From Actinomycetales bacterium (lineage in GTDB: Bacteria > Actinomycetota > Actinomycetes > Actinomycetales > Cellulomonadaceae), in contig JAHLLI010000004.1 of NCBI GenBank assembly GCA_020444245.1, positions 62,001-126,000 of the forward strand: DNA of 64,000 nt, read 5' to 3'. How positions within the stretch are numbered: the stretch's first letter is position 1; each line of letters starts with the position of its first letter. The notes beneath the pieces were generated by a model that had not been told where the DNA came from, searched no databases, and saw only the letters and a list, made by a program, of their open reading frames with translations. Positions 5,123-39,766 of the stretch are shown here, piece by piece. Made by a program: the position numbers and the translations under genes.

Positions 5123-6271
5123 GTGACCACTCTGCGCACCGACCCCGTGCGTCGCGGTCTGGACGCACTCGCCCGGTCCGGCCTCGACTGGGAGTCGTTC
5201 GCCCACGGCGCGATCGACCTCCTCGGCCGTGCGGTGCCCTTCGACGCGGCATGCGTGGGGCCCGCCGACCCGCGGACCGGCCTGCTCACCGGGTCGGTGA
5301 AGCGTGGCATGGGCAACGACAAGGACTTCGAGTTCCTGCGCCACGAGTACCTCGACGACTCGGTCAACCTGTTCCTGGACCTCGTCCACCGGCCCGTACC
5401 GGTGGCGATCCTGGTGGACGACACCGGCGGCCACCCCGAGGTCGCCTCGCGGCACCGCGAGCTCTTCGTGCCCGAGTGGGACCTGGGCCACGAGGTTCGT
5501 GCCGCGGCGGTGCTCGACGGCCGTCCGTGGGCCGGGTTCTCCCTGTACCGCTCCTCGGGCGCGGGCGGGTTCAGCCCCGCCGAGGCGGACTTCCTGGCCA
5601 GCGTCGCGCCCACCGTCGCGCTCGGGGTGCGGGCCGGTCTGGTGGCCGGTGCGGCGCAGGCCGCGCTGGAGGCCCCCGAGGACGGCCCGGCGGTCCTCGT
5701 GGTGGGTCCGGACGACCGCGTGCTCCAGGCCTCACAGGCCGCACAGTCGCGGGTCGCCGACCTGGGCGGCGACGTCTGGCGGCGCCTGCCGACGGCGGTC
5801 GGCTCGATCGTGGCCGTGGCGCGGGCCCTCGCGGCGGGGCACTCGACCCTGGTGCCGCGCCTGCGGGTGCGCAGCCGGTCGGGGCGCTGGTTCGTGGTCC
5901 ACGCCTCGCCGCTGGCGTCCGCCGACGGCGGCGCGGCGCAGGTCGCGGTGACCATCGAGGAGGCCGGCCCGGGGGACGTCGTGCCGCTGGTGGTGGCGGC
6001 GTTCGGACTGACCGGTCGCGAGCGTGACGTGCTCGTCGCGGTGGTGCAGGGCTCGAGCACCGCGCAGATCGCCGCCGCCCTGCACCTGTCGCCGTACACC
6101 GTCCAGGACCACCTCAAGGTGATCTTCGACAAGGCCGGGGTGAGCAGTCGTCGTGAGCTGATCGCCAAGGTGGTGCTCGAGCAGTACGCGCCGCGGTTCG
6201 GCGGCCGGCTCGGCACGTCCGGCTGGTTCGCCGACGACTCCGAGCCCTCGGCGGTCGCGCCGGTCGCGTGA
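5123..6271 (+). CDS. LuxR-family transcriptional regulator with N-terminal sensory region
   Basis: A 382-residue regulator. The C-terminal LuxR helix-turn-helix covers about residues 295-350 (LTGRERDVL ... TAQIAAALHLSPYTVQDHLKVIFDKAG). The preceding 280 residues look like a GAF/PAS-type sensor followed by a short second sensor-like segment. There is no response-regulator receiver domain, so the signal is probably a small molecule or redox state. The GTG start at 5123 is the most plausible because the next upstream in-frame codons run into the operator region; no clear ribosome binding site is present. It is transcribed away from the flavin oxidase gene and converges on the PQQ-repeat gene with a 6-bp gap. 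Confidence 0.8.
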   Translation: MTTLRTDPVRRGLDALARSGLDWESFAHGAIDLLGRAVPFDAACVGPADPRTGLLTGSVKRGMGNDKDFEFLRHEYLDDSVNLFLDLVHRPVPVAILVDDTGGHPEVASRHRELFVPEWDLGHEVRAAAVLDGRPWAGFSLYRSSGAGGFSPAEADFLASVAPTVALGVRAGLVAGAAQAALEAPEDGPAVLVVGPDDRVLQASQAAQSRVADLGGDVWRRLPTAVGSIVAVARALAAGHSTLVPRLRVRSRSGRWFVVHASPLASADGGAAQVAVTIEEAGPGDVVPLVVAAFGLTGRERDVLVAVVQGSSTAQIAAALHLSPYTVQDHLKVIFDKAGVSSRRELIAKVVLEQYAPRFGGRLGTSGWFADDSEPSAVAPVA

Positions 6272-28175: not shown

Positions 28176-28655
28176 ATGGTTCAGGTCTCGTCACAGCAGG
28201 TGTGGGACGTCCTCGGCAAGCAGGTGTTCGCGGTCGTCGGGATGGTCAGCGCCCGCGGCGAGGGGCGCACGGTGGGCATCGTCCCGACGGTGCACGACGG
28301 CGCGCTGTGGTTCCTCAGCAAGGGCGGCGAGTGGAAGGTCAAGCACCTGCGCGCCAACCCCGAGATCTCCGTGACCTACCCGATCGCCAAGCGGATCCCG
28401 CTCATGCCGTGGATCAGGATCCCGGCGGCGACCATCACGTTCCGGGGCACCGCCACGGTGGTGCCGGGAGGTGACGTTCCCACCGACGTCTGGCAGGCGC
28501 TGACCCGCGGGCTCGAGGTGCCCGACGAGGGCGACGACCCGCACGTCGGGGTCCGGATCGACCCGCACGGCGACTTCGTCACCTACGGGGTCGGCACCTC
28601 GCTGATGGGTATGCGCGACACCCTCAACGCCCGCGGACGCGCCCCGGTGCGGTGA
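28176..28655 (+). CDS. Pyridoxamine 5'-phosphate oxidase-like (PPOX) flavin/F420-binding protein
   Basis: A 159-residue split-barrel protein of the PPOX-like superfamily. The central VGIVPTVHDGALWFLSKGGEWKVKHLRANPEISVTYP is the usual cofactor-binding region for FMN, F420 or heme. No specific reaction can be assigned. AGGGGAGG precedes the ATG by eight bases, and a TAGCGT -10 box lies at 28142-28147. A nested hairpin (CCGAAGCCC at 28661 with GGGCTTCGG at 28696) after the stop may terminate this gene while overlapping the next promoter. Confidence 0.78.
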   Translation: MVQVSSQQVWDVLGKQVFAVVGMVSARGEGRTVGIVPTVHDGALWFLSKGGEWKVKHLRANPEISVTYPIAKRIPLMPWIRIPAATITFRGTATVVPGGDVPTDVWQALTRGLEVPDEGDDPHVGVRIDPHGDFVTYGVGTSLMGMRDTLNARGRAPVR

Positions 28656-28678
28656 TCCTCCCGAAGCCCGCGGACGGG

Positions 28679-28723
28679 TCACCCGGCCTGGGTGAGGGCT
28701 TCGGCGGGCGGGGCACCTAGCGT
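28679..28723 (+). promoter_or_regulatory. Promoter A with palindromic activator site (shared element)
   Basis: TCACCC (28679-28684), 5 nt, GGGTGA (28690-28695), then 22 nt to the -10 box TAGCGT (28718-28723). The right half-site abuts the expected -35 position. The same element at the same spacing occurs at 32999 and 37538. Confidence 0.7.
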
Positions 28724-28787
28724 CGAGGTCGTCGGCCCTCGGAGGCCGGCCCCGCAGCCGCGGGTCGCGACGAGCCGGGAGGTACCC

Positions 28788-29222
28788 GTGAGCGCTCATC
28801 CGGACCCCGACGACCTCGGTCCCGTCGACGTGGCGGTGGTCGCGATCCGCGGTGATGTCACGGTGGGCGTGGCCCAGGCCCTGGCGCGGCTGCACCGTGA
28901 CGGCGTGGTACGCGTGCTCGACCTGGCCGTGATCCGCAAGGCCGACGACGGCACACCCGCGTACCTCGAGGTCGACGAGGCAGGGCTCGGCGACGCCTTC
29001 GCGTGGCTGGGCGACGAGGAGCTCGACCTGCTCAGCGACGAGGACCTGGCGGCGGTCGGCGAGGGAGTCGAGCCCGGGTCCTCGGGTCTGGTCGTGGTCT
29101 GGGAGAACGCGTGGGCACGTGACCTCGCGGTGGCCCTGCGGGCCGAGCACGGCTCGCTGGTGATGCACGAACGCGTCCCGCGCGAGACCGTGGTGGCAGC
29201 CCTGGCCGCCCTGGACGACTGA
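28788..29222 (+). CDS. DUF6325/DUF1269-like protein
   Basis: A 144-residue soluble, acidic protein resembling actinobacterial DUF6325 proteins: VDVAVVAIRGDVTVGVAQALARLHRDGVVRVLDLAVIRKADDG, then a run of acidic helices. The fold is likely ferredoxin-like, as in DUF1269; the function is unknown. GGAGG lies five bases before the GTG. It is the first gene behind promoter A and is followed 19 bp later by the SHOCT protein, so the pair is an operon. Confidence 0.75.
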   Translation: MSAHPDPDDLGPVDVAVVAIRGDVTVGVAQALARLHRDGVVRVLDLAVIRKADDGTPAYLEVDEAGLGDAFAWLGDEELDLLSDEDLAAVGEGVEPGSSGLVVVWENAWARDLAVALRAEHGSLVMHERVPRETVVAALAALDD

Positions 29223-29241
29223 CGAGAGACGGAGGCTGACC

Positions 29242-29550
29242 ATGCGAGGACGACGGATGGGACGGCCCGGCCTGGTGGGCACGATGGCCAGGACGGCCGT
29301 GATCGCGGGCACCGCGTCGGCGGTGTCCGGCAACGTGCAGCGCCGTCAGGCGACGAAGTACGCCGAGCAGGCGTACCCACCCCCGGCACCGGTGGCACCG
29401 GCCCCCGCAGCCGCACCGGCACCCGCACCCGCCCCAGCGCCGGCGGACGCGATGATGGCTCAGCTCGTCCAGCTCGGGGAGATGCGCAACCAGGGCCTGC
29501 TCAGCGACGCGGAGTTCGCCGCGGCCAAGGCGCGTCTGCTGTCGTCCTGA
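29242..29550 (+). CDS. Small SHOCT-domain membrane-associated protein
   Basis: A 102-residue protein. The basic N-terminus has a Gly/Ala-rich helix (about 10-32), then an (Ala-Pro)-rich spacer of some 25 residues, and it ends in a SHOCT domain (about 73-102, LVQLGEMRNQGLLSDAEFAAAKARLLSS). SHOCT domains mediate oligomerisation and often sit at the ends of membrane or stress proteins. In this locus it is the second gene of the promoter A operon. Confidence 0.82.
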   Translation: MRGRRMGRPGLVGTMARTAVIAGTASAVSGNVQRRQATKYAEQAYPPPAPVAPAPAAAPAPAPAPAPADAMMAQLVQLGEMRNQGLLSDAEFAAAKARLLSS

Positions 29551-29557
29551 GCGCGCT

Positions 29558-29579
29558 CCCGCCACCGGCGGGCTAGCGT
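29558..29579 (+). promoter_or_regulatory. Hairpin followed by a -10 box
   Basis: CCCGCC-ACC-GGCGGG (29558-29572) may end the SHOCT operon. Two bases after its start of arm two, TAGCGT (29574-29579) is a -10 candidate for the gene at 29620. Confidence 0.45.
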
Positions 29580-29619
29580 GGGGATGACGCGATCGGGCGG
29601 CGGCCGAGGGGAGAATCCC

Positions 29620-31755
29620 GTGGCGCGTGGCGTCCTGGCGAGGGACCTGCGCGATGCCGTGCTGGGCGCCGTGGCGACCGGCATCGCCCTCCTGCTGGCG
29701 GCCGCCGTCGTACCAGGCCTCGAGGTGCAGCACTGGTGGGCCACCGTGGTGGTCGCGCTCGCAGTCGGCGCCCTGGACCTGGTCCTTCGACCCGTGCTGC
29801 GACCGATCGCGATCCGGGTAGGCGTGCCGGGCGCGCTGATCCTCGGCGTGCTCGCGCAGCTGGTGGGTGTGCACCTCTCGCTCGTCGTGGTGCCCGGCGT
29901 GTCGGTCTCCGGCCTGGGTGCGAGCGCGGCGACGCTCGGGGTGGTCGCGCTGGTCCTGGCCGTCGCGCGGTGGGTCCTGGGTGCGGACGACCGTGACTAC
30001 CTCGTGGCCGACCTGCTGCGGCGCGTCCCGAGCGGCCCCGATCGCGGGCAGGACGACCCCCCGGGGCTCGTGGTGGTCCAGATCGACGGGCTCGGCTACC
30101 CCGTGCTGCGGCACGCGATCGCCTCGGGTGACGTGCCGACCCTGGCCGGGTGGCTACGCGCCGGCACGCACCGCGCCAGGTGGTGGTGGGCGCGCGTGCC
30201 CTCCACGACCCCCGCGAGCCAGGCGGGGCTGCTGCACGGGACCAACGACGGCATCCCCGCGTTCCGCTGGTACGACAAGCGTGCGGGCCGCCTGGTGGTG
30301 ACCAACCGGCCGGGCGACGCCGCGATGGTCGAGGCGCGCCTGACCGACGGGCACGGACTGCTCGCCCCCGGTGGCGCCGCGGTGTCCACGATGTTCACCG
30401 GAGACGCCGAGACGGCGCTCATGGTGATGAGTCGCGCCGGGCGCCGCGGCGGTCTGGGATCCGGCGCGAGCTACCTGCGGTACTTCGCCCGGCCCTTCGT
30501 GCTGTCGCGCTCCCTGGTGCTCACCGTCGGGGAGCTCGCCAAGGAGCTCGCGCAGGCCCGCCGCCAGCGCGTGCGCCGGGTCTGGCCCCGGGTACCTCGA
30601 CGCGGCGCGTACGTCGCGCTGCGGGCGATCACGAACGTGCTGCTGCGGGACCTGAACGTCTCGCTCGTCGCCGAGCAGATGGCCCGCGGCGTGCCGGTGG
30701 TGTTCGTCGACCTGGTCGACTACGACGAGATCGCACACCACAGCGGGGTCGCGCGTCGCGAGGCGATCGACGCCCTGGCGGGGGTGGACGCGGCGATCGG
30801 CACGCTCGAGCGGTTCGCGGCCAGGTGCCCTCGTCGGTACCGGTTCGTGGTGCTCTCCGACCACGGCCAGAGCCAGGGACCGACGTTCGCCCAGCTCAAC
30901 GGGCGGTCGCTGGAGCAGGTGGTCTCCGAGCTCACGGGCGTCGGCGGGCTGGACCTGGTGGCGGCGACGGGCCAGGAGGAGGTCTGGGGCCCGCTGGCGA
31001 CGTTCCTGTCGGACGTGCCCGGCCGAGGCGGGACGACCGGCGCCGCGAGCTGGACCCCTGGGGCGCGCCGCCCGCGACGCACGCGGCGCCCCGAGAGCCC
31101 GGACGCCGCCGAGCCGCCGTCCGACCAGGACGCGTCGCGTGCGGTGGTCGCGGCCTCCGGCAACCTCGGGCTGGTCTGGTTCCCCGAGCTGCCCGGACGG
31201 GTGGACCTCGACACGCTCGCCGCGCGCTTCCCCGCGCTGGTGCCCGGGCTGCTGGACCTGCCAGGGGTCGGATTCCTCGTGGTGGACAGCGTGCGCGGGC
31301 CGCTGGCCGTGGGACCGCACGGCGTGCACGCCCTGACCGACGGGCGGGTCGAAGGCGCCGACCCGTTGAGCGCGTTCGGACCGCGGGCGGCCCGCGACCT
31401 GCTGCGCGTCGCGGCGATGGCCGAGGCCCCCGACGTGCTCGTCCACTCCGCCTACGACGAGCAGACCGGCGAGGTGCACGCGTTCGAGGAGCTCGTCGGG
31501 TCGCACGGCGGGCTCGGTGGCGACCAGAACCTCGCCGTGCTGCTGCACCCCGTCGAGTGGGAGCTGGACGCGGACCTGCTCGACGACGCCGAGGCGGGCG
31601 ACGCGGTGCTCTACGGCGCGGACGCCGTGCACCGCCAGCTCATCCGGTGGATCGCGCGGGCGGGCGTGCACGGCGGGCGGCCCGGGGCCCCGGTGCGCGA
31701 CGACCCGGCCGACCACGGGGTCGAGGCGGCCGAGGGCCCGGAGACACCGCCGTGA
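29620..31755 (+). CDS. Holin-like membrane domain fused to an alkaline-phosphatase-superfamily phosphodiesterase
   Basis: A 711-residue protein. The first 120 residues hold four helices resembling the PF04020 'phage holin 4_2' membrane family (ALDLVLRPVLRPIAI). The rest is a type I phosphodiesterase/nucleotide pyrophosphatase domain. Metal and nucleophile residues are in place: QIDG, STTPAS (Thr nucleophile), DYDEIAHHS, SDHGQ and a late SHGG. A low-complexity Arg/Pro insertion lies at about 475-505. The catalytic domain probably hydrolyses a phosphodiester or phospholipid-type substrate at the membrane. AGGGGAG is 7 bases before the GTG. The gene overlaps the next by 4 bp. Confidence 0.82.
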   Translation: MARGVLARDLRDAVLGAVATGIALLLAAAVVPGLEVQHWWATVVVALAVGALDLVLRPVLRPIAIRVGVPGALILGVLAQLVGVHLSLVVVPGVSVSGLGASAATLGVVALVLAVARWVLGADDRDYLVADLLRRVPSGPDRGQDDPPGLVVVQIDGLGYPVLRHAIASGDVPTLAGWLRAGTHRARWWWARVPSTTPASQAGLLHGTNDGIPAFRWYDKRAGRLVVTNRPGDAAMVEARLTDGHGLLAPGGAAVSTMFTGDAETALMVMSRAGRRGGLGSGASYLRYFARPFVLSRSLVLTVGELAKELAQARRQRVRRVWPRVPRRGAYVALRAITNVLLRDLNVSLVAEQMARGVPVVFVDLVDYDEIAHHSGVARREAIDALAGVDAAIGTLERFAARCPRRYRFVVLSDHGQSQGPTFAQLNGRSLEQVVSELTGVGGLDLVAATGQEEVWGPLATFLSDVPGRGGTTGAASWTPGARRPRRTRRPESPDAAEPPSDQDASRAVVAASGNLGLVWFPELPGRVDLDTLAARFPALVPGLLDLPGVGFLVVDSVRGPLAVGPHGVHALTDGRVEGADPLSAFGPRAARDLLRVAAMAEAPDVLVHSAYDEQTGEVHAFEELVGSHGGLGGDQNLAVLLHPVEWELDADLLDDAEAGDAVLYGADAVHRQLIRWIARAGVHGGRPGAPVRDDPADHGVEAAEGPETPP

Positions 31756-32510
31756 GGCTCACCTGGTGGGGGCACTCGTCGGTGCTGCTCGAGGCCGACG
31801 GCGTCCGGCTGGTCGCCGACCCGGTGCTGCGACCCCGGATGGGTGCGCTGCGCCACGTGAGCCCGCCGGACGCGCGCGCGTGGTCGACACCGGACGCGGT
31901 GCTCCTGTCCCACCTGCACCACGACCACTGCGACCTGCCGAGCCTGCGGGGGCTCGGGGCCCCCCTCGTCGTGGTGCCACCCGGGGCGGGTGACTGGCTC
32001 GCGCGGCACGGCGTCGAGGGGGTGACCGAGGTGGAGCCCTGGGCCTCGGTCGCGATCGGCCGAGGCGTGCGGGTCAGCGCTGTCCCCGCCGAGCACAGCG
32101 GGCGCCGCGAGCCGTGGGGGCCGACCGCCCTGGCGGTGGGTCACCTGGTGCACGGGCCTCGGACCACGAGCTGGATCGCCGGCGACACCGCGCTCTTCGA
32201 CGGGATGCGCGAGCTGTCCGGCCTGGGGCCGCGCGGCACGGTCGACCTTGCGGTGGTGCCGGTGTGGGGCTGGGGGCCCAACCTCGGTCCGGGCCACCTG
32301 GACCCCGACGAGGCGGCGGAGGCGGTGGCACGGGTCGGCGCCCGGCACGCGGTCGCGGTGCACTGGGGGAGCTTGCACCCCGCGGGGATGCGCACCCTCA
32401 TGCGGCACCACCTGACCACGCCCGGCGAGCGGTTCGCGGCCGCGGTGCGTCGTGCGGCGCCCGGCACGACGGTGTACCCCTTGGCCCCCGGTGAGGCGTT
32501 CCGGGTCTGA
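31752..32510 (+). CDS. Metallo-beta-lactamase-fold hydrolase (UlaG-like)
   Basis: A 252-residue protein of the MBL superfamily, closest in form to UlaG/YtnP-like lactonases or phosphodiesterases: it begins LTWWGHSSVLLEADGVRLVADPVL and carries the metal motif HLHHDH. Later metal ligands are AGDTALFDG and the histidine in AVHWGSLHPAG. The start codon overlaps the stop of the phosphatase fusion gene (GTGA), so the two are translationally coupled and may act on linked substrates. Confidence 0.83.
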   Translation: MRLTWWGHSSVLLEADGVRLVADPVLRPRMGALRHVSPPDARAWSTPDAVLLSHLHHDHCDLPSLRGLGAPLVVVPPGAGDWLARHGVEGVTEVEPWASVAIGRGVRVSAVPAEHSGRREPWGPTALAVGHLVHGPRTTSWIAGDTALFDGMRELSGLGPRGTVDLAVVPVWGWGPNLGPGHLDPDEAAEAVARVGARHAVAVHWGSLHPAGMRTLMRHHLTTPGERFAAAVRRAAPGTTVYPLAPGEAFRV

Positions 32511-32537
32511 GCCGGCGACCGGGGCGGGCGCGGCTCC

Positions 32538-32948
32538 TCAGCCCGCGGCCTCGGATCGCTGACGGCGCTCGTACGCCGACAGCACCGCGTAGCTCAGGAA
32601 GAAGCTGACCACCGAGATCACCAGTGCCCCGAGCAGCGCCCACCAGAACGAGTCGATCCGCAGACCGACGTCCGTCAGACCGGTGATCCACGCGGTGAGC
32701 GCCAGCATCAGCGCGTTGACCACGAGCGTGAACAGGCCGAGCGTCAGGACGTACAGCGGGATGGACAGGAACACCACCAGCGGCCTGACCACGGCGTTCA
32801 CCAGGCCGAACACCAGCGCGACGGCGAGCGTGAGGAGAACCGTGGTGCCCACCCCCCGGTCCTCGGGGACCAGGGTGAGGCCGGGAAGGATCAGGACCGT
32901 GAGCCAGATCGCCACGGCGTTGAGGACCAGTCGAACGAGGAACGTCAT
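32538..32948 (-). CDS. PF04020 ('phage holin 4_2') family membrane protein
   Basis: A 136-residue protein with four transmembrane helices and the family motif FGLVNAVVRPLVVFLSIPLYVLTLGLFTLVVNALML. Despite the name the family is chromosomal and has no demonstrated holin role. It is related to the N-terminal membrane domain of the protein at 29620, so two paralogous segments sit in this cluster. AAGGAG lies six bases before the ATG. It is divergent from the HerA-like gene and shares its 100-bp control region. Confidence 0.83.
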   Translation of the reverse strand: MTFLVRLVLNAVAIWLTVLILPGLTLVPEDRGVGTTVLLTLAVALVFGLVNAVVRPLVVFLSIPLYVLTLGLFTLVVNALMLALTAWITGLTDVGLRIDSFWWALLGALVISVVSFFLSYAVLSAYERRQRSEAAG

Positions 32949-32998
32949 CGTGGGCTCCTTGGGTCGGCGACACCTCGTGACCCGCGGTGGGGCGGGCT

Positions 32999-33043
32999 TC
33001 ACCCCGTGGGGATGATCTGCTCCGCCGCGTGAGTACCTATCGT
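32999..33043 (+). promoter_or_regulatory. Promoter C with palindromic activator site (shared element)
   Basis: TCACCC (32999-33004), 5 nt, GGATGA (33010-33015), then 22 nt to the -10 box TATCGT (33038-33043), which is 7 nt before the ATG at 33051. One base differs from the element at 28679 and 37538; the spacing is identical. Confidence 0.68.
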
Positions 33044-33050
33044 GCCCGAG

Positions 33051-34454
33051 ATGGACGCAACGCACGTCAATGATCACGCGGTGTGCCTCGACGGCCGCCG
33101 CTTCCGGGCCGTGGCACCCCTGGGGCGGGGCATCGTGCCGGGCGACCTCGTCGTGCTGACCACGGGCACCCAGCAGGTGCTCGGGCAGGTGCACGGCCTC
33201 AGCCTGGACGGCGACGGGCCGCGCGGCGACCCGACGGTGGTCGCGGAGGGGGACGTGCTGGGCCTGCTGGGTGCCGACGGTGTGGAGCTGGGCCCGACCG
33301 CCCCCTTCGTGGCAGACCAGGTCCAGCGGGCCGGGACGGCCGCCACCGTGGCGCTGCAGGAGAAGACCGGCGCGACCATCCCGGTGGCGACCCGGACCGT
33401 GTCCGACGGCGAGGTCGACGTGCGGCTGCGGCCCGGCAAGCTGAACCGGCACACGTTCCTGTGCGGGCAGAGCGGCTCGGGCAAGACCTACGCGCTGGGG
33501 GTGCTGCTCGAGCAGATGCTCGTGCACACCGGCATCACGATGGTCGTCCTCGACCTGAACGCCGACTTCGTGCGCCTGTACGAGGTGCGCACCGACGCCG
33601 ACCCCGCGCTGGCCCGGGCGTTGGAGCAGATCGACGTCCGGGTCCTGCGACCGGCCGGCGAGGGCACCGACCCGCTCGTGGTCCGGTACCCCGACCTCGA
33701 TGTCCGTGCGGCGGCCGCGGCGATGCGTCTCGACCCGCTGGTCGACCGCGACGAGTACGAGGAGGTGCTGCGCTACCGCGAGGAGGCCGAGGGCGGCCGT
33801 CCCCTCGACATCGAGCGGCTGCGCGCGCCGGGCCGGACGCCCGAGCAGGAGCGCCTGCACCAGCGGCTGCGGAACCTCGGCGTGCTCGACTGGCAGGTGT
33901 GGGCCCAGGGCGCCAGGCCCGTGACCGAGATCCTCGACGACCGACACCGCGCCACCGTCCTGGACCTGTCCGGCTTCGCCCAGCCCGAGGAGCGCCTGCT
34001 CGTGGCGCTCGCGGTGCTGGACCACCTCTGGGCGCACCGCGCCGAGCGCCGGCCGACCCTGGTGGTGATCGACGAGGCGCACAACGTGTGCTCGGCGGCG
34101 CCCGACGGCCCGCTCCAGGCGGCGGCCACCGAGCGGCTCGTCCAGATCGCCGGGGAGGGCCGCAAGTACGGGCTGTGGCTGCTGCTGTCCACCCAGCGAC
34201 CGTCGAAGATCCACCCGAACGTCCTGTCCCAGTGCGACAACCTGGCCCTGATGCGCATGAACGGGCCCAGCGACCTGGCCGAGATCTCGTCGGTGTTCGG
34301 CTTCGCACCGCCCGAGCTGGTCGCCAAGGCGGCCCGGTTCGGGCTGGGCGAGGTGCTGCTCGCCGGCGGCTTCGTGCCGGTGCCCACCGTGGCACGGATG
34401 GGGTCGCGGCTGACCGCCGAGGGTGGGGCGGACGTCCCGGTGCCGCGTTCCTGA
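33051..34454 (+). CDS. HerA-like DUF87 ATPase
   Basis: A 467-residue P-loop ATPase of the HerA/FtsK-like (DUF87) class. An N-terminal beta-barrel-like region precedes Walker A GQSGSGKT (residues 139-146). Walker B is VVIDEAH with Asp 341. The arginine-finger region follows (LLSTQRPSKIHPNVLSQCDNLALMRM). HerA ATPases form hexamers that pump DNA or act with NurA nuclease, but no nurA lies nearby. The ATG at 33051 is favoured over a GTG at 33042, because the TATCGT -10 box overlaps the GTG and would give a leaderless transcript starting at the ATG. Confidence 0.82.
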   Translation: MDATHVNDHAVCLDGRRFRAVAPLGRGIVPGDLVVLTTGTQQVLGQVHGLSLDGDGPRGDPTVVAEGDVLGLLGADGVELGPTAPFVADQVQRAGTAATVALQEKTGATIPVATRTVSDGEVDVRLRPGKLNRHTFLCGQSGSGKTYALGVLLEQMLVHTGITMVVLDLNADFVRLYEVRTDADPALARALEQIDVRVLRPAGEGTDPLVVRYPDLDVRAAAAAMRLDPLVDRDEYEEVLRYREEAEGGRPLDIERLRAPGRTPEQERLHQRLRNLGVLDWQVWAQGARPVTEILDDRHRATVLDLSGFAQPEERLLVALAVLDHLWAHRAERRPTLVVIDEAHNVCSAAPDGPLQAAATERLVQIAGEGRKYGLWLLLSTQRPSKIHPNVLSQCDNLALMRMNGPSDLAEISSVFGFAPPELVAKAARFGLGEVLLAGGFVPVPTVARMGSRLTAEGGADVPVPRS

Positions 34455-34471
34455 CCGCTGCCGACCCCGCC

Positions 34472-34678
34472 TCAGTCGGGCAGGCGGTGCATCTCCAGGA
34501 GCGTGAGCCGCAGCAGCGAGAACCGCGCGATCAGGCCCTCGAGCTCGTCCTGGTCGACGAGCGGCCCGTACAGCACGTGGTCGCTCGTCGCGGACACGTG
34601 CAGTCCGGGGAAGGCGTGCTGCACGGTCTGCGACAGCCGCTCTGCGAAGCGGAACTCGTACCGGAGTGTCTCGTTCAC
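34472..34678 (-). CDS. Small protein of unknown function (68 aa)
   Basis: A short cytosolic alpha/beta protein (YEFRFAERLSQTVQHAFPGLHVS ... LLRLTLLEMHRLPD). It resembles small actinobacterial hypothetical proteins with an alternating beta-alpha-beta-beta-alpha layout. No function known. It converges on the HerA-like gene with a 17-bp gap and is divergent from the LAL regulator. Confidence 0.62.
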   Translation of the reverse strand: MNETLRYEFRFAERLSQTVQHAFPGLHVSATSDHVLYGPLVDQDELEGLIARFSLLRLTLLEMHRLPD

Positions 34679-34768
34679 CGCTGCCCTCGTCCCGGCGGGT
34701 CGTCCCGGCCGGCACGTGGCGCCGCCCGGTCAGGCTGAGGCCCTCAAGCCTGGCGCCACGAGGGGGCC

Positions 34769-34828
34769 GGTGACCTCACCCGTCCCGGACGACCTCCTGT
34801 GGCGACCACGGGGCGGTGCCGATAGCGT
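34769..34828 (+). promoter_or_regulatory. Promoter region of the LAL regulator with inverted half-sites
   Basis: The -10 box TAGCGT is at 34823-34828. Upstream, GGTGA-CC-TCACC (34769-34780) carries the two half-sites of the shared cluster element in the opposite order and without the fixed distance to the -10 box. It could be an autoregulatory site with different geometry. Confidence 0.4.
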
Positions 34829-34882
34829 CGACCCGTCGGCGTCGTCGTGCGGGGCGCGCCGCGGAGCCGTCACGGGGGTGCC

Positions 34883-37513
34883 GTGGAGCGAGCACCGCAG
34901 GCACGACGCGGGGTACCCGCGCCGAAGACCCGTGTCCCGAGCATCCCGGCGGACCTGGTCGGCCGCCGTCGACTGCTCGACAGCCTGTGGTGGGACAGCG
35001 CCCCCGATGGTCGGGTGGCACTGGTGACCGGCGCCGCCGGGGCGGGCAAGACGACGTTGGTCGCCCTGTGGCTCGAGCAGCGACGTTCCGAGCAGGAGCT
35101 GGCCGTCGCGTGGGTGTCGCTCAACCCGCAGGACGACGAGGTCCACGCGTTGTGGTCGGCGGTCCTGGTCGCGCTGGAGCAGTGCGGCGCGTGGTCCGAC
35201 ACCCCGCCCCTGCACGACCTCGAGGCGCCGCGCCGCAGCGTCGGCCAGGGCTTCCTGGCGCAGCTGGTCGACGCGATCGAGAGCGCAGCGGTCCCGGTGT
35301 GCCTGGTGCTCGACGACCTCCACGTGCTCCGGGACCGGGCCGCGCTGGACAGCATCGACGCGCTGCTGCGCAGCCTCCCGAAGAGGTTCGAGCTGGTCCT
35401 GAGCGCCCGGTTCACCCCGGACCTGGCGGTGGCACGCCTCCAGGTCGAGGGGCGCCTGGTGCGGGTCACGGCGCCCGATCTGGCCTTCACCCGCGAGGAG
35501 GTCGGCGCCCTGCTGCACCGTCACGGCCTGCAGGTCTGCCCCGAGGACCTCACGGCGTTGCACCGGCGCACGGAGGGTTGGGCGGCCGGGCTCGCGCTCG
35601 CCGTGTCGTCGATGGGACGGCGCGCGGACGTGCACCGCTTCATCGAGGAGTTCGCCGGGGACGATCGCACGATGGCCGACTACCTGGTCGGCGAGGTCCT
35701 GCGTCAGCTCGAGCCGGACGTGGTCGACTTCCTGCTGGCCGCCTCGATCTGCGACGACGTCGACCACGACCTCGCCGTGGCCGTCACCGGGCGACCGGAC
35801 GCAGCGCGGCTGCTGGACGAGGTCGAGCACGCCAACGTCCTGGTGACGCGGGCCGCCGGCCACGACACGACGTACCGCTACCACGCGATGCTGCGGGAGT
35901 ACCTCCAGGCGGAGCTCGCGCGGCGCGACCCGGGCCTCGTGCCGGTGCTGCACCGCCGGGCGGCGGGGCGGCTCGCGGCGCGGGGCGAGCCGCTGCGGGC
36001 CCTCGAGCACGCGGTCGCTGCGGCCGACCCCGGGCTGGTCCGGGACGTCGTGGCGCGGGAGGGCCTGCGGCTGGTCTGGACGGGATCGGCCTCCAGGGTC
36101 CGACGTGCGCTCGCGCGCGCCCGGCGTGCGGGCCTGGTGGACCCCGTGCTCGGGCTGGTCGAGGCGGTCGCCGCGCTGGATGCGGGGGACACCGCTGCGC
36201 TCGCCGACGTCGAGCACACCTTGGCGGTCCTGCCGCCGTCCGCCGTCGCGGATCCGGCCTGGGCGCTGATGGCCACGCTGGTCCGCGCCCGCATCGCGCT
36301 GTGGAACGGTGAGGTGGCGGCGGCCGTCGAGCTCGTCGGAGAGGTCGACCGACCGCTCGACCCCGACCTGAGGCTGTACGCGGACGGTGTGCGCGCGGCC
36401 GTCCGGCTCTCCAGCGGCGACCAGGACGCCGAGGAGCTGCTCACCGACGTGGTCGCGCGTGCTCGGGCGATGGGTCGGCGCGGCCAGGTGGTCAGCGGGC
36501 TGGCCCAGCTGACCGTCGCGGCGGGTGCCCGGGCCGACACGGTCGAGGTGGTCGCCCGCGCCCGCGAGGTGCTGGACCATGCCGATCGGCTCGGGCTCGG
36601 TGGCGGCCCGCACGGCGCGACCGCCCACGTCGCCCTCGGCTGGGCAGGCTATCTCCGGGCCGACGACGAGATGGCTGCCACCGGTCTCGCGGAGGCCGTC
36701 GCACTGATCGACGCCGGTGTCTGCGAGCCGGCGACGGAGCTCGCCGCCCGGACCCTTGCGGCCGTCCTGGATGCCGACGCGGCCCCGGCGGTGGCCGCGG
36801 ACCGGTTGCGGGCCGCGTGGGGCACGGACCGCCCGCTCGCGGCGTGGCGCGCGCTGGCCGCGATCGTGCCCCAGACCGAGCTGCGACTGGCCCTGGGGCT
36901 CGGCCGGCGAGTGGCGGCCGAGCGGATCGTGTCGGCCACTGCCGCCCGGCTCGGTGAGGGAGCCGAGACGGTGCTGCTGCGTGCCGCCCAAGCCCTCGAC
37001 CGGGGTCGCCCGGACGTGGCGGAGCGCCATGTCCGTCCTGTGCTCGCCGGGAGCCTGCCGGCGGTGAACGGGGTGACCTCGGTCAGCGCCCACCTGCTCG
37101 GCGCGACCGCCTGGGAGCGCCAGGGCGGCCGGGTCCGCGCGCACCGGGCGCTGGTCGACGCGCTGGCGGAGGCGGAACCGCTGGGGCTCGCGCGCCCGTT
37201 CCTGGACTCCGGACCGGAGGTGCTGGCGCTGCTCGACGACGGGATCGGCCGGTTCGGGCGCCATGAGGCGTTCGTCGCCCTGCTCCGGTCACGTCGCGTG
37301 GCGCACGAGGCCCCCGGTCCGCAGAACCTCACCGCCAGGGAGCTCGAGCTCCTGGCCGAGCTGCCCACCCTGGGGACGAACGAGGAGATCGCGGCCGCGC
37401 TCGTGGTCTCGGTCAACACCGTCAAGACGCATCTGCGCAGCATCTACCGCAAGCTCGGGGTCTCCACCCGCCGCGAGGCCATGCTCGCCGCCCGTCGGCG
37501 CGGCCTGGTGTAG
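34883..37513 (+). CDS. MalT/LAL-type LuxR transcriptional regulator
   Basis: An 876-residue large ATP-binding LuxR regulator. An N-terminal STAND-type NTPase has Walker A GAAGAGKT (residues 50-57) and VCLVLDDLHVL as Walker B. A winged-helix and TPR-like helical sensor region follows (about 280-790), then a C-terminal LuxR HTH (about 812-870: LTARELELLAELPTLGTNEEIAAALVVSVNTVKTHLRSIYRKLGV). LAL proteins are signal- and ATP-dependent activators that oligomerise on sites beside the -35 region; E. coli MalT recognises GGGGA(T/G)GAGG. It lies between three promoters bearing a TCACCC-N5-GGGTGA element and is the obvious candidate activator. The start is GTG after GGGGG. Confidence 0.9.
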   Translation: MERAPQARRGVPAPKTRVPSIPADLVGRRRLLDSLWWDSAPDGRVALVTGAAGAGKTTLVALWLEQRRSEQELAVAWVSLNPQDDEVHALWSAVLVALEQCGAWSDTPPLHDLEAPRRSVGQGFLAQLVDAIESAAVPVCLVLDDLHVLRDRAALDSIDALLRSLPKRFELVLSARFTPDLAVARLQVEGRLVRVTAPDLAFTREEVGALLHRHGLQVCPEDLTALHRRTEGWAAGLALAVSSMGRRADVHRFIEEFAGDDRTMADYLVGEVLRQLEPDVVDFLLAASICDDVDHDLAVAVTGRPDAARLLDEVEHANVLVTRAAGHDTTYRYHAMLREYLQAELARRDPGLVPVLHRRAAGRLAARGEPLRALEHAVAAADPGLVRDVVAREGLRLVWTGSASRVRRALARARRAGLVDPVLGLVEAVAALDAGDTAALADVEHTLAVLPPSAVADPAWALMATLVRARIALWNGEVAAAVELVGEVDRPLDPDLRLYADGVRAAVRLSSGDQDAEELLTDVVARARAMGRRGQVVSGLAQLTVAAGARADTVEVVARAREVLDHADRLGLGGGPHGATAHVALGWAGYLRADDEMAATGLAEAVALIDAGVCEPATELAARTLAAVLDADAAPAVAADRLRAAWGTDRPLAAWRALAAIVPQTELRLALGLGRRVAAERIVSATAARLGEGAETVLLRAAQALDRGRPDVAERHVRPVLAGSLPAVNGVTSVSAHLLGATAWERQGGRVRAHRALVDALAEAEPLGLARPFLDSGPEVLALLDDGIGRFGRHEAFVALLRSRRVAHEAPGPQNLTARELELLAELPTLGTNEEIAAALVVSVNTVKTHLRSIYRKLGVSTRREAMLAARRRGLV

Positions 37514-37537
37514 GCGGTGCCCGACCGGACCGGGTCC

Positions 37538-37582
37538 TCACCCGGCTGGGGTGAGGCCCGGCCGACGGGCCGGGCCTAGCCT
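37538..37582 (+). promoter_or_regulatory. Promoter B with palindromic activator site (shared element)
   Basis: TCACCC (37538-37543), 5 nt, GGGTGA (37549-37554), then 22 nt to the -10 box TAGCCT (37577-37582). The spacer contains a second GC hairpin (GGCCCGGC/GCCGGGCC), and the first can extend to CCTCACCC/GGGTGAGG, so a terminator role for the LAL transcript is an alternative or added function. Confidence 0.68.
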
Positions 37583-37615
37583 CCGACCACGGCAAGCAGG
37601 AGACCGGGAGGGACG

Positions 37616-38314
37616 ATGGGGGAGGACGGCTCCGCGCGCGAGGCCGGCGCAACGGCCGACGAGAAGGCGCCCGCGGACGGTGCTCCCGCCGAACCGATCG
37701 GTGCCGAGCGGATCCGGGACATCATCGCCGTCGTCATCCTGTCGATCACGGCCGTGCTCACCGCCTGGAGCGGCTTCGAGTCGAGCAAGTGGGGCGGCGA
37801 GATGTCGATCTCCTTCTCCAAGGCGTCGACGGCGCGGATCGAGGCGTCCAGGGAGGCCGAGCGGGCGAACGCCGCGCGCGGCTACGACCTGGACGTCTTC
37901 GGCATCTACGTGCAGGCGCTCGCCTCGGACGACCAGGTGCTCGCCGACTTCGCCGAGGAGCGCTTCAGCGATGCCTTCCGGCCCGCGTTCGACGAGTGGA
38001 TCGCGATGGAGCCGCTGCAGAACCCGGACGCCCCGAAGAGCCCCTTCGCGCTCGACGCCTACCAGCCACCCGGCCAGCAGGAGGCGGCGGAAGCCGACGC
38101 CCGGGCCGACGAGCTGTTCCAGACGGCGTTGCGCAACAACCAGCGCGGCGACAACTACACGTTGCTGACGGTGCTGTTCGCCCTCGTGCTGTTCTTCACC
38201 TCCGTGTCCGGGCGGCCCAAGCTCGCGTCCATGCGGTGGTTCATGCTCGGTCTGGCCGTCACCCTCGCCATCGTGGGGGCGGGCTTCCTCGCCGCGTTCC
38301 CGAAGATCATCTAG
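37616..38314 (+). CDS. Membrane protein of unknown function (three helices)
   Basis: A 232-residue protein. A charged Ala/Glu-rich N-terminus is followed by a helix at about 36-54 (IIAVVILSITAVLTAWSGF), a 120-residue soluble region with Trp/Phe-rich helices (SKWGGEMSISFSKASTARIEASREAERANAARGYDLD) and two C-terminal helices. The pattern resembles uncharacterised DUF-type proteins near stress regulators. GGGAGG precedes the ATG and the gene is first behind promoter B, directly after the LAL regulator. Confidence 0.75.
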   Translation: MGEDGSAREAGATADEKAPADGAPAEPIGAERIRDIIAVVILSITAVLTAWSGFESSKWGGEMSISFSKASTARIEASREAERANAARGYDLDVFGIYVQALASDDQVLADFAEERFSDAFRPAFDEWIAMEPLQNPDAPKSPFALDAYQPPGQQEAAEADARADELFQTALRNNQRGDNYTLLTVLFALVLFFTSVSGRPKLASMRWFMLGLAVTLAIVGAGFLAAFPKII

Positions 38315-38389
38315 CCACCGCCAACCCGAGAGGCGCCCTCACCATGGTCACCGGACGGACCCACGACACCGCGTCAGAGGGCTGACCCG

Positions 38390-39766
38390 GTGAGCCCGCC
38401 CCGCGCCAGACGGACGCCGTCCGCCGACGAGCCGGACCATGAGGAGCTGCTGGCCAGGATCGCGAGCCTGGAGGCGGAGAACGCCACCCTGCGGACGTCC
38501 GCCGAGCCCCCTCGTCGGCGTGGCGGTCGGGGGCGGTCCGCGGCCGTGGTCGTGCTGGTCGTGGTCGCCGCGCTGCTCGCCCCGGTCGCGGTCACCCTCG
38601 CCTGGGCTCGTGGACTGGTCACCGACACCGACCGCTACGTCGAGACCGTGGCGCCGCTCGCCGACGACCCGGCGGTGCAGGCCGCGATCACGGACCGCGT
38701 CACGACGGCCCTCGCGGACGCGCTCCGGGTCGACACCCTGGTGCAGAACGCCTCCGACGCGCTCGACGAGTCCGACCTGTCGCCGGCGGTGAAGCTGCTG
38801 GTGCGGTCGTTGGGCGGGCCCCTGATCGACGCGCTGCGCAGCCGAGTGCGCTCCGCCGTGGCCTCGGTGGTCGGCTCGGACGCGTTCGCGACGGCGTGGC
38901 GGGAGGCGAACCGGGCCGCCAGCGAGCAGCTGGTCGCCGTGCTGCGCGGTGACCCTGACGCGATCGCGCAGCTCGACGAGGGCGGCACTCTCAGTGTGGA
39001 CCTGGCCAGCGTCATCGAGGTGGTGCGCCAGAACCTGTCCGACAGCGGCTTCGGCCTGGTCGACCGCCTGCCTGCCGTCACCGCGAGCTTCCCGCTGCTG
39101 TCCAACGGCGACCTGGTGAAGCTCCGTGGCCTGTACCGGGCGATCGACCTGCTGGGCACGGCGATGGTCTGGGTCGTGCTCGCTCTGCTGGGCGCCGCGG
39201 TCTGGCTGGCTCGGGACCGGCCCCGGACGGTGATGGTGTCGGGCTTCGTGATCGCGCTGGCCGGTGTGATCCTCGGCGCGGGCATCAACGTGGGACGCGG
39301 CGTCTACACCGCGGCGGCGGCGGGCCAGGTCGCCCGGCCCGATGCCGCGGTGGCCGTGTACGACCAGGTCGCCTCCGGCCTGCGGCTCGCGACGCGGACG
39401 ACGCTGGCCCTCGGACTGGTGATCGCCCTGGTCGGGTTGGTCGCGGGGCGGTCGGCCGCGGCCGGGGGTCTGCGCGCGGCGCTGACGAAGGCGGGGGAGG
39501 CGGCCGGCCGCAACGGCGTGCTCGCCCAGGTCCGTCAGGGGCCGGTCGGGGTGTGGCTCGCGCGGCACCTCACGGTGGTTCGGGCGGGCATCGGCGTGCT
39601 GGCGGGCCTGGTCCTGGTCCTCGCCGATCGGCTGACCGGTGGCCTGATCCTGTGGGTCGGCGCGGTGGCGGCGGTCCTGCTCGTGGTCGCGCAGGTGCTC
39701 GCCGCGCCGGAGGAGGCGGGGGCGTCGGCCGAACCGGAGGAAGCGGGGTCGCCGTCCGGCGGCTGA
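38390..39766 (+). CDS. Polytopic membrane protein with N-terminal coiled coil
   Basis: A 458-residue protein. Residues 15-38 form a short coiled coil (HEELLARIASLEAENATLR), followed by a helix at about 50-72, an extracytoplasmic helical domain (about 75-250) and five to six further helices to residue 440. The C-terminal tail is acidic and Pro/Ala-rich. No known family motif. It lies 75 bp after the preceding membrane protein in the same direction and is probably in its operon. AGAGGG is eight bases before the GTG. Confidence 0.72.
   Translation: MSPPRARRTPSADEPDHEELLARIASLEAENATLRTSAEPPRRRGGRGRSAAVVVLVVVAALLAPVAVTLAWARGLVTDTDRYVETVAPLADDPAVQAAITDRVTTALADALRVDTLVQNASDALDESDLSPAVKLLVRSLGGPLIDALRSRVRSAVASVVGSDAFATAWREANRAASEQLVAVLRGDPDAIAQLDEGGTLSVDLASVIEVVRQNLSDSGFGLVDRLPAVTASFPLLSNGDLVKLRGLYRAIDLLGTAMVWVVLALLGAAVWLARDRPRTVMVSGFVIALAGVILGAGINVGRGVYTAAAAGQVARPDAAVAVYDQVASGLRLATRTTLALGLVIALVGLVAGRSAAAGGLRAALTKAGEAAGRNGVLAQVRQGPVGVWLARHLTVVRAGIGVLAGLVLVLADRLTGGLILWVGAVAAVLLVVAQVLAAPEEAGASAEPEEAGSPSGG

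Follow-up and report, generated by a model that had tools for sequence, protein, structure and literature searches.

A strict palindromic element at fixed promoter spacing as the predicted operator of a group of LAL-type regulators in actinobacteria

LAL/STAND regulators are encoded by many actinobacteria, and to our knowledge few of them have a defined operator. Here we describe a palindromic element, TCACCC-N5-GG(G/A)TGA (hereafter the N5 element), which occurs three times with the same promoter spacing around a LAL gene in a stretch of 64,000 nucleotides (the window) from the genome of an Actinomycetales bacterium (G000). Based on sequence comparison, the palindrome very likely serves as operator for a subfamily of LAL (MalT-type STAND) activators, represented in the window by the protein encoded at 34883-37513, with predicted class II promoters and a predicted regulon.

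The best matching half-site belongs to another regulator, BldM, whose helix-turn-helix (HTH) domain is of the GerE/LuxR type. In Streptomyces venezuelae, the BldM Group I site, TCACcCgnncGgGTGA, consists of TCACCC/GGGTGA half-sites with a spacer of 4, is bound by the BldM homodimer, and serves the activation of several promoters (PMC4125116); its targets are developmental genes, chaplins and others (PMC8914203). A report on the LAL protein SCO6993 of Streptomyces coelicolor gives GGA[TG]GA as the MalT-box core and describes SCO6993 as a repressor of antibiotic regulatory genes, which binds short inverted repeats and its own promoter without a predictable consensus (PMC9628970). No published N5 element was found in a literature search of the titles and abstract beginnings of open-licence papers, and no open-licence paper was found that combines at least two of DUF6325, SHOCT and LuxR.

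The element in the window and in the genome

The elements and their -10 hexamers are as follows.

28679..28695, + strand: N5 palindromic element TCACCCGGCCTGGGTGA, exact match, predicted operator of the DUF6325/SHOCT unit
28718..28723, + strand: -10 hexamer TAGCGT, 22 nt downstream of TCACCCGGCCTGGGTGA
32999..33015, + strand: N5 element TCACCCCGTGGGGATGA, in a divergent intergenic region, predicted operator of the HerA-like gene
33038..33043, + strand: -10 hexamer TATCGT, 22 nt downstream of TCACCCCGTGGGGATGA
37538..37554, + strand: N5 element TCACCCGGCTGGGGTGA, predicted operator of the membrane-protein pair
37577..37582, + strand: -10 hexamer TAGCCT, 22 nt downstream of TCACCCGGCTGGGGTGA
34776..34792, no strand assigned: degenerate element TCACCCGTCCCGGACGA with 1 mismatch, between the gene of a 68-amino-acid protein and the LAL gene

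The original prediction had placed elements at 28679, 32999 and 37538, each followed after exactly 22 nt by TANNNT, and had seen no other copy of this geometry in the window. All three are present at these positions with the hexamer at that distance, and only these three composites of palindrome and hexamer were found when up to 3 palindrome mismatches and TANNNT at 22 or 23 nt were allowed. In Markov sequences of the same dinucleotide content (30 runs), the mean number of composites was 0.0 for exact matches and 0.1 when up to 2 mismatches were allowed. Palindromes with 2 mismatches were not enriched in the window (10 versus 9.4 expected); the signal therefore lies in the exact palindrome plus the spacing.

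The element is also rare across the 44 contigs of the genome (4.41 Mb), where a search with TCAYCC-N5-GGRTGA returned 4 copies and the reversed-pattern control 0. All 4 palindromes have TANNNT 22 or 23 nt downstream. The base composition of the window predicts 0.79 palindromes genome-wide (P of at least 4, 0.009) and 0.007 composites, against 4 observed. The fourth site (contig 10:183405) lies 84 kb from the other three, upstream of an alpha/beta-hydrolase-like gene and with TAGCGT 23 nt downstream. It may be functional too, because at L170, in a different family of the order, a 51% identical hydrolase is encoded two genes downstream of a composite element, in second place. Conservation at orthologous promoters, proposed as a check, was borne out: the element stands upstream of orthologous targets, including the orthologous DUF6325 genes at L031, L056, L019 and L043.

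Linkage to LAL genes and the candidate binder

The candidate binder is encoded between the second and the third element.

34883..37513, + strand: LAL (MalT-type) regulator, proposed element binder; PF00196 45.6 bits (cut-off 23.5), AAA_16 34.9 bits (cut-off 32.6)

This is indeed the only large regulator in the interval, as had been stated. The protein of 876 amino acids comprises an N-terminal STAND ATPase, a probable MalT-like helical region and a C-terminal GerE/LuxR HTH (PF00196 at residues 815-868); no receiver domain was found in Pfam. Residues G53, G55, K56, T57, D144 and D145 are invariant among 5 homologues. The match to PF17874 reached 34 bits, below the cut-off of 45, and a profile of the LAL and four homologues matched the MalT fragment structure 8bob over model positions 35-445 (E 1.3e-69), with clear profile matches to GerE structures as well. 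A protein scan of the genome's contigs with the LAL as query gave one distant HTH only and was not used. The window contains a second GerE-domain frame (about 6008-6166), with a weak PAS-fold match and no LAL ATPase (AAA/STAND) match in Pfam.

For the analysis of linkage, LAL genes were called at E<=1e-30, with 3 candidates scored per genome in the order-wide scan. The count covered 131 sites in the 29 LAL-positive genomes having sites and 48 of the 57 LAL genes called, the other 9 belonging to genomes outside the list of site positions; it leaves out the sites of genomes without such a LAL (9 in G024, 3 in G018, 4 in G198 and single sites elsewhere). Within 20 kb of a window-like LAL gene lay 55 of the 131 sites, with 2.3 expected, and within 2 kb still 26, with 0.33 expected. 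A site was present within 700 bp upstream of 12 of the 48 LAL genes (0.04 expected). Across 248 genomes of the order, TCACCCN5GGGTGA occurred 68 times in 38 LAL-positive genomes (1.79 each) and 85 times in 210 LAL-negative ones (0.40 each; P 7e-10), while the control pattern totalled 3 and 23, respectively. At least 3 sites were found in 10 of the 38 LAL-positive and in 5 of the 210 LAL-negative genomes.

The linkage follows the phylogeny of the regulators. In a tree of 41 LALs, the window's LAL falls into a group of 10 on one strongly supported branch, all members of which have a site within 10 kb. In another supported group the same holds for 1 of 14, and 13 of the 14 carry a different recognition helix (GPxIA..L.VSxNTxRTHT), a class that was defined after the data had been seen. 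The site label changes 6 times on the tree, compared with 13.3 times after shuffling (0 of 500 shuffles as low), a result to which near copies contribute. The phylogeny of the LALs explains much of why some LAL-positive genomes have no site.

Regulator and sites are also absent together. A DNA-level search for the locus covered 18 congeners, and the stretches of four of them (G001, G008, G002 and G003) were inspected. The gene order alpha/beta-hydrolase, phosphodiesterase, metallo-hydrolase, alanine dehydrogenase is retained in G001 and G008, and at this locus both lack the genes of the DUF6325, SHOCT, holin-like, HerA and LAL proteins and of membrane protein 1 (mem1; features listed below). 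No exact N5 element is present in the locus stretch of either genome; in G008 the metallo-hydrolase gene contains a single copy with 1 mismatch. G001 keeps PNPOx and a 52% identical membrane protein 2 (mem2) without an N5 site, and G008 is without both. The G002 stretch yielded only the hydrolase and the dehydrogenase. In G003 no LAL passes the strict cut-off, and one N5 site precedes DUF6325/SHOCT on the same contig. A large GerE protein ends 1.7 kb away; it has at least 520 amino acids, being truncated by the limits of the fetched stretch, and Pfam recognized no domain in it other than GerE.

Alternatively, the element could be bound by a GerE regulator from another part of the genome, either BldM-like or short and stand-alone, the LAL genes being merely frequent members of its regulon. 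This explanation is improbable, with several points in its favor: the half-sites of the BldM Group I site are identical (PMC4125116), and the genome has 28 GerE-domain matches, so that other HTH proteins could be the binder. Short GerE-only frames of 90-178 amino acids, with an HTH about 54% identical to that of the LAL, occur in this genome and in others of the genus (L193, in the frame containing 2694-2888; L204; L205). The BldM spacer, however, is 4 and not 5. In a scan of spacers N2-N8, TCACCC-N4-GGGTGA was found in G000, among the matches listed, in 5 copies (L193-L197) on contigs C21, C36, C39 and C42, whereas the N5 set is on C10; C21, C36 and C42 each have one copy with a short GerE frame no more than about 1 kb away, and none of the 5 has TANNNT at 15-34 nt. 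BldM as the direct explanation was set aside because of the spacer and the location of the N4 copies on other contigs. Because of this location and the lack of TANNNT at the N4 copies, N4 and N5 look like two systems with a common half-site. Furthermore, the LAL and the N5 sites are jointly missing from the locus in G001 and G008, though G008 has a short GerE frame, and linkage is predicted by membership in the LAL group, as would not be expected if a third regulator were shared.

Promoter geometry and mode of action

The promoter geometry was analyzed with 147 unique sites, for whose collection no criterion but the palindrome was used and from which 1 site near an end had been dropped; loci L007-L026, L058-L060 and L063-L064 are included, and loci selected for the -10 (L163-L192) and 12 listed sites in G187, G117, G073, G268, G042 and G198 are excluded from this set. 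In the 294 flanks, TANNNT was found 17 times at a spacing of 22 and 14 times at 23 (31 in total), and at other offsets 0.46 times on average (maximum 3). The looser NANNNT occurred 72 times at 22 and 40 times at 23; elsewhere it averaged 6.2 and never exceeded 14. On at least one side, 96 of the 147 sites have NANNNT at 22 or 23, whereas other offset pairs averaged 11.2 such sites and reached 22 at most. The spacing of 22 originally put forward thus stands for the three window sites and fails as the sole value, since either 22 or 23 is used among the 147.

A smaller collection of 129 sites yielded 107 promoters with an assignable orientation, and 15 of its sites have NANNNT at 22 or 23 on both sides. 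An ATG follows the -10 after 6-8 nt in 19 of the 107, as expected of leaderless transcripts. No -35-like consensus adjoining the element was found in the oriented promoters, nor was a TTGACA/TATAAT-type pair found in 28600-38400. The promoters thereby combine a site adjoining the -35 position, a fixed -10 distance and the lack of a good -35, as is characteristic of class II activator-dependent promoters. The suggestion that the half-sites abut the -35 position, as for an activator contacting polymerase, fits both the 22/23 spacing and the lack of a -35 consensus. From the distance between element and -10, the element would cover about -51 to -35 with its center near -43, the position of a class II activator. 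Two genomes have closely paired N5 elements, in G065 at C1:1082768 and 1082817 (49 bp apart, start to start) and in G084 at C1:138974 and 139012 (38 bp apart); perhaps binding is cooperative there.

Based on these data, the following mechanism is proposed. ATP plus a ligand would switch the LAL on, by analogy with MalT. Two GerE-type HTH domains of the activated oligomer would then bind as a dimer to the two GGRTGA half-sites, whose starts are 11 bp apart, about one helical turn. From its place directly upstream of the would-be -35 box, the LAL would recruit RNA polymerase to promoters that have a -10 (TAGCGT/TACGTT type) but lack a -35 hexamer, in the manner of a class II activator. The regulon here would comprise the DUF6325/SHOCT unit, the HerA-like ATPase, the unit of two membrane proteins and the distant alpha/beta-hydrolase, and the LAL with its 68-amino-acid neighbor is possibly autoregulated.

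A repressor site, with the LAL or a different protein shutting off promoters that would otherwise work from the -10, is very unlikely. An operator abutting the -35 could occlude polymerase, and the LAL SCO6993 acts as a repressor (PMC9628970). Against repression speak the lack, noted above, of a -35-like consensus and of a TTGACA/TATAAT-type pair, and the 22/23-nt spacing, whose constancy over many promoters would be demanded by contact with polymerase and not by a repressor. Hairpin terminators or chance palindromes of GC-rich DNA can be dismissed as a full explanation: two copies do lie 23-24 nt past upstream stop codons and could form hairpins, which had raised this worry, but there is no terminator-like site within 28600-38400, the middle copy lies between divergent genes, NANNNT stands at 22 or 23 on both sides of 15 of the 129 sites, and the empty reversed-pattern control and the spacing statistics of the 147 sites speak against it as well.

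The predicted role of the LAL is well supported by comparative evidence, and several observations weigh against it. No NANNNT is present at 22 or 23 on either side of 51 of the 147 sites, and 76 of the 131 sites have no LAL gene within 20 kb. The LAL-negative genomes are above background (85 sites versus 23 for the control in 210 genomes); some of them may hold more distant LALs, because 3 candidates per genome were scored with a strict cut-off. None of the 11 sites of G028 shares a contig with the LAL of that genome, and in G047 a LAL of the window type is present while exact sites are missing. For G024, with 9 sites, no LAL passed the cut-off, a distant one lying in its cluster. The LAL's own promoter in the window carries only the 1-mismatch element, with no TANNNT at 22 or 23. 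Outside the order, 11 of 22 composite loci have no recognized target or LAL within the 2-3 kb fetched. The 28 GerE matches, the late definition of the helix class and the help that near copies give to the shuffle test count on the same side.

Genes of the locus, predicted regulon and known systems

The other genes of the locus are listed below.

28788..29222, + strand: DUF6325 protein, predicted target; Pfam PF19850 38 bits, cut-off 23.4
29242..29550, + strand: SHOCT-domain protein of the DUF6325/SHOCT unit; PF09851 30.1 bits, cut-off 27
29620..31755, + strand: protein with 4 transmembrane segments plus a type I phosphodiesterase; PF01663 41.7 bits
32538..32948, - strand: Phage_holin_4_2 family membrane protein, divergent from the HerA-like gene; PF04020 97.6 bits
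33051..34454, + strand: HerA/FtsK-like ATPase; PF01935 49.8 bits
34472..34678, - strand: 68-amino-acid protein, divergent from the LAL gene; no Pfam match
37616..38314, + strand: mem1, predicted target; no Pfam match
38390..39766, + strand: mem2, presumed in the mem1 unit; no Pfam match

The phosphodiesterase protein, whose gene is retained in G001 and G008, both without LAL and sites at the locus, probably belongs to the conserved backbone rather than to the regulon; its N-terminal stretch weakly resembles Phage_holin_4_2, below the cut-off. The holin-like gene is a possible second target of the middle element, which has no -10 at 22/23 on the side of this gene. The mRNA of the HerA-like gene is probably leaderless, because the ATG at 33051 follows just 7 nt after the -10; the mechanically called GTG start at 33042 overlaps the -10. 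A HerA-like homologue is found at L041 (G036), with the site 45 nt from the matched start. A homologue of mem1 (66% identical) is present at L045, with the site about 590 nt from the match, and homologues of mem2 at L046 and L056, the L046 site lying 123 nt from the match.

Relatives of the 68-amino-acid protein, with 35-44% identity, are encoded in G059, G087, G036, G004 and G003 next to N5 sites or to genes of LAL or large GerE proteins, and there is a weak match in G073 at the locus of a LAL without nearby sites. It is possibly a partner or modulator of the LAL. In G087 and G036 the divergent LAL/68-amino-acid pair has an exact element between the genes, in the place with which the degenerate element at 34776 aligns; the latter has NANNNT at 23 on the minus side only (CAGGCT).

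Relatives of the window targets adjoin sites in other families and orders. Downstream proteins were scanned with Pfam (85 proteins, being 84 of 89 downstream proteins after 5 doubtful frames had been dropped, plus the window's DUF6325 protein). Counted with no background gene set, the matches included Sulfatase 11, DUF6325 11, DUF1269 9, sulfate permease 4, SfLAP 4, HAD hydrolase 4, DUF389 3, PLDc_N 3, SHOCT 3, ClC 2, AI-2E 2 and GerE 2. A class-wide search of 345 genomes turned up the composite at 46 places, distributed over 31 genomes, with a control count of 3. For the 22 composite loci outside the order, 2-3 kb each were fetched, and 11 contain a relative of a known target or of the LAL, including LAL at L184, L188 and L190, DUF6325 at L192, DUF1269 at L188, the PLDc_N type at L184 and L185, and a sulfatase at L191. 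In genus g125, also outside the order, very similar composites occur in several genomes (L179-L182) with no recognized target or LAL within 3 kb. Because membrane, sulfatase, SulP, ClC and DUF1269 targets recur, we would guess that the signal is envelope or ion/sulfur-ester stress.

We lean slightly towards a wider interpretation: a class-wide, apparently undescribed LAL/STAND regulon would operate through the strict GGRTGA-N5 palindrome, the N5-versus-N4 spacer would be a code preventing crossover between LAL and response-regulator GerE proteins, and regulator, operators and targets would be gained and lost as one module. For an uncharacterized LAL family, a predicted operator, a promoter geometry, a regulator group and a target list were derived by sequence comparison. 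The list is rich in proteins of unknown function (DUF6325, DUF1269, SHOCT, DUF389), and the predicted operator and regulon make both the regulator's signal and the functions of these families testable.

Compared with the maltose regulon of Escherichia coli, the LAL shares with MalT the architecture of STAND ATPase, probable helical region and GerE HTH. MalT boxes are asymmetric, whereas here a strict palindrome has a fixed spacer, a fixed promoter distance and unrelated target genes. The MalT-box core GGA[TG]GA (PMC9628970) resembles GGRTGA; the proposed likeness of the half-sites to the MalT box was nevertheless not upheld, as the core is exact in 1 of 6 half-sites (GGATGA, 33010-33015), the other 5 being GGGTGA, and the closest half-site is that of BldM. 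SCO6993 belongs to the LAL family, as does the window regulator, but differs by repression, the lack of a predictable consensus and antibiotic regulatory targets (PMC9628970). BldM shares the identical half-site (PMC4125116) and differs in its 16-bp site with spacer 4, against spacer 5 in all four genomic copies here. In addition, BldM is an orphan atypical response regulator, whereas Pfam shows an ATPase domain but no receiver domain in the linked LAL. How related HTH proteins avoid each other's sites could be studied cleanly with the N4/N5 contrast to BldM, and what appears to be new here is a group of LAL regulators with an operator class of its own.

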